Assembly (NCBI GenBank): GCA_012034615.1 | Contig: JAAUPA010000013.1 | Span: forward strand, 1-39,933 | DNA: 39,933 nucleotides | Direction of reading: 5' to 3' | From: Leptolyngbyaceae cyanobacterium CSU_1_4 | Lineage (GTDB): Bacteria > Cyanobacteriota > Cyanobacteriia > Elainellales > Elainellaceae | In this document: positions 21,756-26,599 of the stretch, one piece after another | Numbering within the stretch: the stretch's first letter is position 1 | How the letters are laid out: each line of letters opens with the position of its first letter | Translations under genes and position numbers: made by a program | Notes under the pieces: model-generated | Told to the model about the DNA's origin: nothing | What the model saw: the letters and a program-made list of their open reading frames with translations, nothing else | The model's database searches: none

Positions 21756-22546
21756 CTATGCCTCCTTCTGCATTCTTTCTCCAATTTTGCTAGCCGTTCT
21801 TAAGATTTGTCCGGCTAACATTGCCGCACCAAAGCCATTGTCAATGTTGACTACGCCAATGCCGACGGCACAGGAATTTAGCATTGTCAGCAGGGCAGAA
21901 AGCCCGTTAAAGCTAGCTCCATAGCCAATGCTGGTAGGCACGGCAACGACAGGACAGCCCGCCAGTCCGGCAACGACGCTAGGCAATGCCCCTTCCATTC
22001 CGGCGATGACAATCAACACGTCGGCATCGTCAATGAGGTGGCGGTTTTGCAAGAGGCGGTGAATGCCTGCTACGCCCACATCCCAAAGGCGCTTGACTTG
22101 GAAGCCGCAGAGTTCGGCAGTAATGGCGGCTTCTTCGGCAACGGGGAGGTCGGCGGTGCCTGCGGAGAGGAGGGTGATGGTGCCGGGATAGTGGGATGTA
22201 AGGGTGAGTGGGCGATCGCCCCAATGCGGGCAGTGGCAAAGTACTGCAATTCGGGTATTTTTTCTTGAAGCTGTTGGGCAACTGCTGCGTCGATGCGAGT
22301 TGCCATGACGACCGGATTCTTCAGTCGCAGCGCCCCCATAATTTGAATAATTTGATCGGGGGTTTTATCTTGCCCCCAAATCACTTCGGGGAAGCCGGTG
22401 CGGAGCGATCGATGATGGTCAATGTTGGCAAAGTCGGAGACAGGCTCGAAGTCAAAGTGGCGGAGTTTTTCGAGAGCGGCATCAGGGCTGAGGCTACCTT
22501 GAGCAACAGCATCGAGCAGGTTACGGATGGCTTCAGGTTGGGTCAC
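21756..22546 (-). CDS. larB: LarB, nickel-pincer cofactor synthesis (AIR carboxylase-like), one frameshift
   Basis: About 263 residues after repair, the family length. The first part has [21 protein letters not shown]-like sequence ([16 protein letters not shown]), followed by VMATR. The second has [25 protein letters not shown] and [16 protein letters not shown], the PurE-like nucleotide/CO2 site. LarB carboxylates and hydrolyses nicotinic acid adenine dinucleotide on the way to the nickel-pincer cofactor. One C missing from the run at 22210-22212 (GGG on the plus strand) shifts the frame; restoring it gives [19 protein letters not shown]. No larC or larE gene is in the window. Confidence 0.9.
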
Positions 22547-22617
22547 GGCTGGGGATAAATTCTGTATTAGAACCTTTCAATTATGTTGCTTTAATAAAAT
22601 TCAGGCTTTCCTCGTTG

Positions 22618-22631
22618 TACTTACGTAAGTA
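22618..22631. promoter_or_regulatory. Perfect 14-bp palindrome TACTTACGTAAGTA
   Basis: An uninterrupted palindrome, 72 bp upstream of the larB start and just before the candidate small RNA. It has operator-like symmetry. The regulator is unknown. Confidence 0.55.
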
Positions 22632-22639
22632 GAAACGAT

Positions 22640-22725
22640 AAAGTGTATTGAAGCTAACACAGACGAGTTGGCTGACATAGGAAGTTAATCAGGATCTAGA
22701 GCGTAAGAGATTGCGCTCTTTTTTT
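22640..22725 (+). ncRNA. Candidate small RNA ending in an orphan terminator
   Basis: AGAGCG (22698-22703) and CGCTCT (22714-22719) form a stem with a seven-T tail to 22725, an intrinsic terminator reading to the right. No plus-strand gene precedes it: the neighbours larB and tyrS are both on the minus strand. A short RNA starting after the palindrome and a weak TTGTAC...GATAAA promoter at 22615-22642 would fit. The exact 5' end is not determinable. Confidence 0.4.
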
Positions 22726-22775: not shown

Positions 22776-24014
22776 TTAAAGCCCCAACCGGACAAACTTA
22801 TTCTTGCCCACTTGCAAGACTTTCCCCTCTAGCTCTGTGGCGCTTTCAAAGACGAGGTTGAGGTCTTCAACCCGATCGCCATCTAGTCGCACCGCGCCGC
22901 CCTGAATTTGTCGGCGCGCGTCAGAACTGCCGCTGCATAGCCCACTGGCACTAAGAATATAGAACAACTTTGCCGGAAACTGAATGGTTTCCAGAGAAAA
23001 TGCTGGCACCGCATCGGCTTGTTTGGCATTGCCTTGAACCAGAGTAATGGCTGCTTTTTGGGCTTCTAACGCCGCCGCCTCACCATGATATTGACTGACC
23101 ACCGTGAGAGCCAAGAGCTTTTGGCGATCGCGCGGGTTCTCTGGCAATTCCGCCAGCGGCAAGTTGGTTAACAGCTCAAAATACTGAGTAATTTGGCTAT
23201 CTGGCGTTTTCTCCAGTTTGGAGTACATACTGAGAGCATCTTCCTGTAGCCCGACAAAATTTCCGAGGGATTTAGACATTTTCTGCACGCCGTCTGTGCC
23301 AATTAAGATCGGCATGAGCAAGCCAAACTGAGGACGCTGACCAAAGTGGCGCTGCAAGTCTCGTCCGACTGCCAGGTTAAATTTTTGATCAGTTCCTCCT
23401 AGCTCCACGTCTGCCTCAAGCGCCACCGAGTCGTAGCCCTGCATCAGCGGGTAGAGGAACTCATGGAGATAAATAGGGTTCTCTTTCTTATAGCGCTCAG
23501 AAAATCCTTCCTTGGCTAGCATTTGCCCGACGGTCATGGTGGCGAGGAGCTCCTGAATTTTGCCTAGGTCGAGCTTAAAGAGCCACTCAGAGTTGTAGCG
23601 AATCTCTAGCCGTCCGGGCGTGTCAAAGTCTAAGATGGGGCGAACTTGGTCAATATAGGTTTGGGCGTTTTGCAGAACTTCTGCCTCAGTCAACTGCTTG
23701 CGCACTTCTGACTTGCCCGTGGGATCGCCAATCCGCGCCGTAAAGTCGCCAATGAGCAAGATGGCAGTATGCCCGGCATCTTGAAACGCCCGCAGTTTAC
23801 GAATCACGATGCTGTGCCCCAGGTGAATGTCGGAGCCTGTGGGGTCAATGCCAAACTTAATCCGCAGGGAGCGATCGGGGTTGCCGTTCCCCCCAGGGTC
23901 GCTCTTCTCTAGCCTTGCCTCCAAATTTTCGTCGGGGTCAGTAGAGGTGGGCTGATGGGGAAAGATTTCAGAGGTGCCCCGATGCAGCCAAGGAAAAGGT
24001 TGAGATAGATTCAT
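22776..24014 (-). CDS. tyrS: Tyrosyl-tRNA synthetase
   Basis: 412 residues, class I synthetase charging tRNA-Tyr. The HIGH-type motif is GSDIHLGHS (His64-His67), the KMSKS motif is [11 protein letters not shown] (about 245), and the C-terminal ~60 residues are an S4 RNA-binding domain ([15 protein letters not shown]). The N-terminus carries an acidic, low-complexity stretch of about 35 residues ([20 protein letters not shown]) between the first helix and the Rossmann core, not typical of the enzyme and probably a surface insertion. Start ATG at 24014. It is divergent from the PBP1A gene across 151 bp. Confidence 0.96.
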
Positions 24015-24165
24015 AGAAGATATTTAACCGCGATCGCTGACCCATATCAAAATAAAACTACAATTAAACGTTCCTCTCTACACAGGTTAACCCGTTCAGG
24101 GCTTCTCATAACATTTGCCAAACTCCACACTATAATCACAAGCATTCAAGGAAAAAACCATAGCT

Positions 24166-26109
24166 GTGTCATCCAATACTGCTGAACCTAACCGCGCTTC
24201 TCAGAAACCCCCTAGTCCGGCAAGGCTTGCTAAGCCCCTTTCGCCTACCCGCGAATACCTTCAAGGAGTCGCGCAAGTAACAGCCGGGACGCTGCTAGGG
24301 TTGACCATGCTTGCCAGCTCGATCGCCGCCGGAGGCTTGGTAGGCTTGGCAATTAGCTTTCGCAACCTGCCCGATGTGCGGGTACTGCGGAACTATATTC
24401 CTTCAGAAACCAGCTACGTTTACGACATCAACGGCACGCTGTTGACCAGTATGCACGACGAAGCCAACCGAGAAGTGGTTGATCTTAACGATATTACGCC
24501 CCACTTGAAACGAGCCACTCTGGCGATCGAAGATAGCTACTTTTTCTCTCACCAAGGCGTTAACCCGATCGGCATCGCCCGCGCCAGTATTGCCAACTAT
24601 CAAACCGGGCGCACCGTGCAGGGTGGTTCAACAGTGACGATGCAGTTGGTCAAAAATCTGTTCTTAAACCCAGAGCAATCGATTAAGCGAAAAGTTGCTG
24701 AAGCCGTTTTATCCCTTAGGTTAGAGCAAGTCTTTACCAAGGATCAAATTCTGCAAATGTACCTTAATCAGGTGTATTGGGGACACAATACCTACGGCGC
24801 TCAGACGGCGGCAAAGAGCTACTTTAATAAGTCGGCAGCAGACTTGACCCTGGGTGAGTCGGCGATGATGGCAGGCATTATTGCGGCACCCGAAACCTTC
24901 AGCCCGTTTGTTGATTATCAACTGGCAAGGAAACGACAGGCGATCGTTTTGAACCGAATGCGAGAGCTGAACTGGATTACGGCCGCCGAAGAGAAAACTG
25001 CCCGCCTCCAAGAAATTAAGCTAGGACAAATTACCTCCTTCCGGCAAAGTCAGTCGCCCTACCTGACGGATGCAGTGGTGCAAGAACTAAAAAATCGCTT
25101 TGGCAAAGATGCCGTGATTAAAGGCGGAATGCGGATTCAGACGACTGTCGATCTTAACTTTCAACGGATGGCAGAAGAAAGCGTCAGAGAAAGCTTTTAT
25201 CGAATTCAGGCAGGGGGCGTTTATGCCGACCAAATGGCGCTGGCTGCCGTTGATCCCCGCACTCATTTTGTGAAGGCAATGGTCGGCGGAATTGACTACA
25301 AACAAAGTCAATACAACCGGGCAACCCAAGCCCAACGGCAACCTGGTTCGGCGTTCAAGCCCTTTGTTTATTACACCGCGTTTGCCAGCGGTCGGTGGGC
25401 ACCCGACTCTACCATTTCCGACTCGCCTGTGAGCTATCCCGATGGCGACGGTTACTACAGTCCGCGAAACTATGACGGCAGTTTTTCAGGTGCCATTTCC
25501 CTTCGGACTGCCCTTGCCCTTTCTCGCAACGTCCCGGCTATTCGGCTAGGGCAGGATGTGGGTCTTAATCGCGTTATTGAAGTGAGCCGAACCCTGGGCA
25601 TTAAGAGCCCCATGGAGCCAGTCATTTCGCTGCCCCTCGGCTCAGTCGATCTCACACCCATGGAAATGGCGGCGGCATACGCCACTTTTGCCAGTGGTGG
25701 CTGGCAGTCTCCCACGACGACGATCGCCCAAGTCACCGACAGCAAAGGCAATATTCTCCTCGATAACACCCCCAAACCTCAGCTTGTTCTTGACCCTTGG
25801 GCTAGCGCGGCGCTCACCGAAACCCTAGAAAGTGTGATCACCAGCGGGACGGGCAGAGGCGCACAAATTGGTCGTCCGGCGGCAGGTAAAACCGGAACCA
25901 CGTCATCTGAGCGGGACATCTGGTTTGCAGGCTATGTGCCGCAATTATCGGTGGCAATTTGGGTGGGGAACGATAACTACGCTCCGATTGGGCAAGGGGC
26001 AACAGGCGGCACATTCATGGCTCCTGCTTGGAGAGATTTTATGCTGAAAGCGCTGGCAAACATGCCGGTCGAAGACTTTGCGCCCTCGTCAAACTTTAGC
26101 CGACCTTAA
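24166..26109 (+). CDS. Class A penicillin-binding protein 1A
   Basis: 647 residues, GTG start. A cytoplasmic tail and one membrane helix (GTLLGLTMLASSIAAGGLVGL) precede the GT51 glycosyltransferase domain, with EDSYFFSHQGV carrying the catalytic Glu, and QGGSTVTMQLVKN (about 151-163). The transpeptidase domain has PGSAFKPFVYY (Ser near 393 with SxxK), ALSRNVPAI (SxN) and GKTGTTSSERDIWFAGY (KTG, about 574). It polymerises and cross-links peptidoglycan at the cytoplasmic membrane. Length and motif order are complete. Confidence 0.95.
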   Translation: MSSNTAEPNRASQKPPSPARLAKPLSPTREYLQGVAQVTAGTLLGLTMLASSIAAGGLVGLAISFRNLPDVRVLRNYIPSETSYVYDINGTLLTSMHDEANREVVDLNDITPHLKRATLAIEDSYFFSHQGVNPIGIARASIANYQTGRTVQGGSTVTMQLVKNLFLNPEQSIKRKVAEAVLSLRLEQVFTKDQILQMYLNQVYWGHNTYGAQTAAKSYFNKSAADLTLGESAMMAGIIAAPETFSPFVDYQLARKRQAIVLNRMRELNWITAAEEKTARLQEIKLGQITSFRQSQSPYLTDAVVQELKNRFGKDAVIKGGMRIQTTVDLNFQRMAEESVRESFYRIQAGGVYADQMALAAVDPRTHFVKAMVGGIDYKQSQYNRATQAQRQPGSAFKPFVYYTAFASGRWAPDSTISDSPVSYPDGDGYYSPRNYDGSFSGAISLRTALALSRNVPAIRLGQDVGLNRVIEVSRTLGIKSPMEPVISLPLGSVDLTPMEMAAAYATFASGGWQSPTTTIAQVTDSKGNILLDNTPKPQLVLDPWASAALTETLESVITSGTGRGAQIGRPAAGKTGTTSSERDIWFAGYVPQLSVAIWVGNDNYAPIGQGATGGTFMAPAWRDFMLKALANMPVEDFAPSSNFSRP

Positions 26110-26131: not shown

Positions 26132-26455
26132 TTATACCTGTCGTTCTAATTCCGCTTTCATACGCTCCAGCGTGTAGTTCATTTGGTCAAACATTTGCTG
26201 CGGCGTGATGCCAAATTGATCGAGTTGAGTTTTCATTTGCTCTACGGTCATTTGTGCCATAAAGTCTTCAGATAACTCGAAGCGTTTCATGAAAATCCGG
26301 TAACGATCCATCATCGCTTCCATTTGTTCGATGAACATCTTTTTCCCTTCGCGGTCAAACTTGCCGTAGTCGGAGCCGAGTTGGGTGAGGGATTGGTAAT
26401 CATCGAACAACTTTTTGGCTTCTTGTTGAACAATATCAGAATCAAAGAATCCCAT
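26132..26455 (-). CDS. DUF1825 family protein
   Basis: 107 residues, almost entirely helical, beginning MGFFDSDIVQQEAKKLFDDYQ, with the cyanobacterial DUF1825 core QLGSDYGKFDREGKK and Met-rich helices MEAMMDRYRIFMKRFELSEDFMAQM. It is conserved in cyanobacteria, with unknown function. It stands alone: convergent with PBP1A (22 bp) and 145 bp from the toxin gene, on the same strand. No catalytic residue is visible. Confidence 0.93.
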   Translation of the reverse strand: MGFFDSDIVQQEAKKLFDDYQSLTQLGSDYGKFDREGKKMFIEQMEAMMDRYRIFMKRFELSEDFMAQMTVEQMKTQLDQFGITPQQMFDQMNYTLERMKAELERQV

Positions 26456-26599
26456 TGCTGCCTGTAGTTGGTGTTGTTCTAAGTGATAACTTGGGGCTAG
26501 TAATCTATGAAAGCTAGCGTCTTATATCTCTTATTTTAATGCAGCTTTTAGTTGACTTAAGTGCGGTTTCCTCTACAGGGATGAAGACGAAATATATTG

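Follow-up and report, generated by a model that had tools for sequence, protein, structure and literature searches.

A probable genus-specific small RNA gene between larB and tyrS of a Leptolyngbyaceae cyanobacterium, with predicted pairing to the purC start codon

What does an intrinsic terminator serve on the plus strand between two genes that are both read from the minus strand? The window analysed here is the whole stretch of 39,933 nucleotides from Leptolyngbyaceae cyanobacterium CSU_1_4 (genome label G000). A preliminary description had placed such a terminator between larB and tyrS, where no plus-strand gene ends, and had proposed a small RNA (sRNA) with a palindrome at its head. The terminator was confirmed, as was the lack of any plus-strand gene ending at it. 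Its stem occupies 22698–22719 (9 bp, 4-nt loop) and its T7 run 22719–22725. No other plus-strand stem in the whole window reaches 9 bp and runs straight into seven T. The palindrome was said to lie about 70 bp upstream, and the terminator indeed starts 66 bp after it. The features of the locus are as follows.

21756–22546, minus strand: larB, divergent neighbour of the sRNA, frameshifted in the assembly (one base missing)
22580–22585, minus strand: possible −10 element of larB, CATAAT, lying within a conserved block (from sequence)
22615–22620, plus strand: putative −35 element TTGTAC of the sRNA (from sequence; conserved in the related genome G001)
22618–22631, no strand: perfect 14-bp palindrome TACTTACGTAAGTA, possible operator, inside the putative sRNA promoter
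22639–22644, plus strand: putative −10 element TAAAGT (TATGGT in G001), 18-nt spacer (from alignment)
22650–22725, plus strand: sRNA gene, putative transcript of about 76 nt (from identity with G001 and fold; 5′ end placed from the −10 element)
22652–22673, plus strand: 5′ hairpin AGCUAAC-ACAGACGA-GUUGGCU of the sRNA (predicted fold)
22674–22697, plus strand: single-stranded linker GACAUAGGAAGUUAAUCAGGAUCU, 24 nt (predicted fold); its first 13 nt (22674–22686) are exactly complementary to the region of the purC start
22698–22725, plus strand: intrinsic terminator of the sRNA, 9-bp stem, GAGA loop, T7 (from sequence and fold)
22776–24014, minus strand: tyrS, convergent neighbour of the sRNA

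We compared the locus across 36 genomes of the family, which here means the whole order. One other genome of the same genus, G001, was among them. The TyrS proteins of G000 and G001 are about 95–97% identical, marking the two as close species, and both share the order larB, spacer, tyrS. Positions 22643–22724 (82 nt) are 100% identical between them; across the 33.8 kb of aligned sequence, which is 84.6% identical overall, only one identity run is longer. Identity is 89% in larB, 85% in tyrS, 67% at the third codon positions of tyrS and 35% in the 51 bp from the sRNA terminator to tyrS. The identical stretch breaks off partway through the terminator's T run. An 82-nt identity with this boundary is the signature of an RNA gene under selection whose 3′ end lies at the terminator. 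The block around the palindrome (approximately 22610–22633) is also identical in G001, and five substitutions fall within 22634–22643, between the palindrome block and the sRNA block.

The RNA from 22650 to 22725 is predicted to form two hairpins, one at its 5′ end and the other the terminator, with an open linker between them; the minimum free energy (MFE) structure agrees with the centroid structure. Transcription would start near 22650, as placed by the putative −10 element at 22639–22644. In the alignment only positions 1, 2 and 6 of this element are kept in G001, and it scores below the threshold of the promoter scan. The locus has the make-up of a trans-acting base-pairing sRNA, namely its own transcription unit, with a putative promoter, closing in an intrinsic terminator. 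Computation points to a selected, structured and terminated RNA here, and a real sRNA gene between larB and tyrS is highly probable.

The conserved stretch could alternatively act in cis, as a leader or regulatory region of minus-strand larB or as a processing or termination region of tyrS, with no separate plus-strand RNA. In favour of this, larB and tyrS both run on the minus strand, and conservation extends to parts of the spacer nearer larB. However, the folding z score is −2.4 for the sRNA plus strand versus −0.04 for the minus strand of the spacer, the latter no better than shuffled sequences. The T run follows the hairpin on the plus strand only, and the identity stops at the plus-strand terminator. 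A purely cis-acting element is therefore very unlikely. The idea that the locus encodes a micropeptide is harder still to credit and verges on the implausible. A 25-codon minus-strand frame from an ATG (MSANSSVLASIHFIVSTYVSTTRKA) is open in both species, but all four codons that differ between them change the amino acid, the remaining third positions of the frame do not vary, and no ribosome-binding site is seen ahead of the ATG. On the plus strand no frame exceeds 18 codons and none has an ATG.

Both genomes were searched for two 13-nt sequences complementary to the linker. The 13-mer AACTTCCTATGTC has one exact match per genome outside its own locus, in both cases at the ATG of purC, whose product is SAICAR synthetase (Pfam). 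The match lies at the same site in G000 and G001, the translation start AACTTCCT-ATG-TC. The exact complementarity of the linker over 13 nt to the purC start in both genomes is the new observation here. The predicted duplex has 14 (G000) or 15 (G001) continuous pairs across the AUG, and cofolding yields a gain of about −22 kcal mol−1 in both species with the same main pairs. The duplex energies are −24.2 and −24.9 kcal mol−1 in the two sRNA-bearing species versus −7.1 to −14.9 kcal mol−1 for the purC start region of 28 relatives without the sRNA. The complementarity between linker and purC start is conserved and clade-specific. Since only two close species carry the sRNA, the conservation of the purC site is that of one comparison. 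The start regions of larB and tyrS were also considered as targets and gave weak values (−7.2 and −15.1).

Conservation of a target across species is the criterion that CopraRNA applies to its predictions (PMC7154689). At this locus the predictions give both an accessible seed region and, at another site of the genome, a conserved target complementary to it. The small RNA of the preliminary description is well supported by the conserved transcript with its terminator boundary, by the fold and by the conserved target match. Regulation of purC is its best-supported function, and we lean towards it with some reserve.

A null scan covered 2067 start windows from gene models, about half of the G001 genome, and purC ranks third among them. 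Four of the 2067 windows score −23.5 or below, whereas shuffled linkers average 0.1 such windows and in 220 shuffles the count never gets to four; shuffles in which GACAU is kept control only partly for CCTATGTC-like start contexts. Windows shifted off the starts hold fewer strong matches than the start windows. Among these four, L225 probably does not represent a gene. The start window of a PEP-CTERM/DUF4114 protein (L307) scores −27.1 and that of an MFS transporter (L241) −23.7, while an FKBP (L263, −23.1) and ChlG (L264, −19.7) pair at their start codons; the last three were named from sequence. Orthologues of these other candidates are present in G000, and their pairing was computed in G001 only. 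The G000 positions are C336:3129 for the PEP-CTERM/DUF4114 gene, C63:6152 for the MFS gene and C307:7255 for the FKBP gene, all on the minus strand, and C350:631 on the plus strand for chlG. Pyrimidine-rich contexts resembling CCTATGTC are found repeatedly at start codons, so a complement finds some of them by chance.

These values bear on a reading in which the sRNA acts in trans, mainly on targets other than purC. The linker would then be a general anti-start-codon sequence, directed at mRNAs such as those of the PEP-CTERM/DUF4114 protein, the MFS transporter, FKBP and ChlG, and the purC match would be partly chance. Other start windows as good as or better than purC (−27.1, −23.7 and −23.1) speak for it, as does the enrichment of start windows over neighbouring ones. 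Yet purC alone is matched in both species, and it alone has an outgroup control. We consider a general linker of this kind unlikely.

The explanation that we favour, though without strong conviction, is a genus-specific trans-acting sRNA that blocks translation initiation of purC and perhaps of a few further targets. Plus-strand transcription of the spacer that separates larB from tyrS would give an RNA of about 76 nt, which would fold as predicted and leave the 24-nt linker open. The linker would pair with the purC mRNA and cover its start codon, as predicted in both species. Ribosomes would thereby be kept off purC, and less SAICAR synthetase and less purine synthesis would presumably follow. 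A few other mRNAs, those of the PEP-CTERM/DUF4114 protein and the MFS transporter, might be struck at their start codons likewise; this weaker prediction comes from one genome. A repressor at the conserved palindrome would plausibly control the sRNA promoter. The host is a filamentous cyanobacterium, and the sRNA would switch off translation of a gene of purine synthesis. If the proposal is correct, the pairing of sRNA and purC is precise and testable by one reporter assay.

The preliminary description had also placed the palindrome upstream of larB. The palindrome is perfect and 14 bp long as described, and TACTTACGTAAGTA has a single occurrence in the window, which stays the only one in the genome when one mismatch is allowed. 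The copy upstream of larB, about 71 bp before its start, is therefore the same one and not a second, and the genome-wide motif search yields no further copy upstream of other genes. Nor is the palindrome at the head of the RNA: it lies in the putative promoter, at about −32 to −19 of the predicted start and over the −35 element and spacer, and thus outside the transcript. In this position it is a plausible candidate repressor site. A literature search found no description of it. It does not appear to fit the LexA-, NtcA- or HLR1-type consensus sequences.

Compatible with the action on purC is the suggestion that a regulator uses the palindrome as its operator and controls larB and the sRNA jointly. 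The palindrome is kept in both species and lies between two putative divergent promoters. On the other side, it has a single genomic copy, no regulator gene adjoins it, and no such site is found at larB of 29 relatives. A palindrome of this length also means little alone, since perfect palindromes of at least 14 bp number three in the window versus an expected 2.5 ± 1.5. A shared operator is accordingly doubtful.

How widely does the sRNA occur? The hairpin and the palindrome are both kept in G001, but neither the sRNA nor the palindrome was found upstream of larB in the 29 relatives. A covariance model of the sRNA found it only in G000 and G001 among the 36 family genomes and 390 genomes of the class. 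Three further matches were rejected as chance-level: one in G024 (E 0.22) is a terminator behind a small gene, and those in G140 and G093 have E values of 0.06–0.09. No homologues were found in plasmids, viral contigs and genome contigs, a search from which records very near G000 were possibly left out. No Rfam family (release 15) matched at its gathering threshold; the best match below it was STnc40 (RF02057; E 0.13, score 21.5 versus a gathering score of 45). In a set of 30 tyrS loci that were read, larB adjoins tyrS only in this genus.

The predicted action resembles that of NsiR4 of Synechocystis, a trans-acting sRNA that pairs with 5′UTRs just before the start codon (−18 to −4 in pirA) and, as shown by experiment, lowers expression of a metabolic gene in nitrogen/arginine metabolism (PMC9196836). 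Both are cyanobacterial and pair near the start codon of a metabolic gene, here by prediction, but in CSU_1_4 the predicted target is purC, whose start codon itself falls inside the paired stretch. The cyanobacterial sRNAs PsrR1 and IsaR1 likewise stand alone and regulate groups of mRNAs through base pairing; their targets, as cited in PMC9196836, are genes associated with photosynthesis under shifts of light or iron. The CSU_1_4 sRNA matched none of the Rfam families, among which NsiR4, PsrR1 and IsaR1 may not all have models. With the Salmonella-family STnc40 it shares the form of a short sRNA with a terminator hairpin, but the match is at chance level. A literature search found no cyanobacterial sRNA acting on purC or purine synthesis.

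We tentatively extend the proposal, as a possibility that falls somewhat short of probable, to a young sRNA with an anti-start-codon linker that ties de novo purine synthesis, through purC, to a signal acting at a palindromic promoter site, the sRNA and the purC leader both having arisen within the genus. The sRNA and its target site would then have appeared together in one genus, and the outgroups have neither.

Some further observations concern the neighbouring genes. At 22200–22225 (at GCGATCGC-CC) larB is one base short of the intact G001 gene; the missing base splits it into two frames and reflects either an assembly error or a recent frameshift. No larB was found in G011 (92% complete), the closest genome of another genus, apart from a weak match to the C-terminal half of LarB; the 35 other family members have the gene. 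The nearest named relatives by TyrS are Synechococcales C42_A2020_086 (81%) and Elainella saxicola (78%).

The longest identity run with G001 in the 33.8 kb aligned is at 24127–24209 (83 nt). It spans the start (24166) of a class A PBP gene, and we read it as a conserved leader or promoter of that gene. Long identity runs at 26298–26353 and 26412–26465 lie in a stretch without an open reading frame of at least 150 aa. Another run is at 1032–1106. Near it, a 64-nt run at 1360–1423 is closely followed by a plus-strand terminator, GAGGGCACGAGGCGATCGTGCCCTT with a T run (1455–1479), and positions 1360–1479, possibly the first candidate of the preliminary description, perhaps hold a further small RNA.
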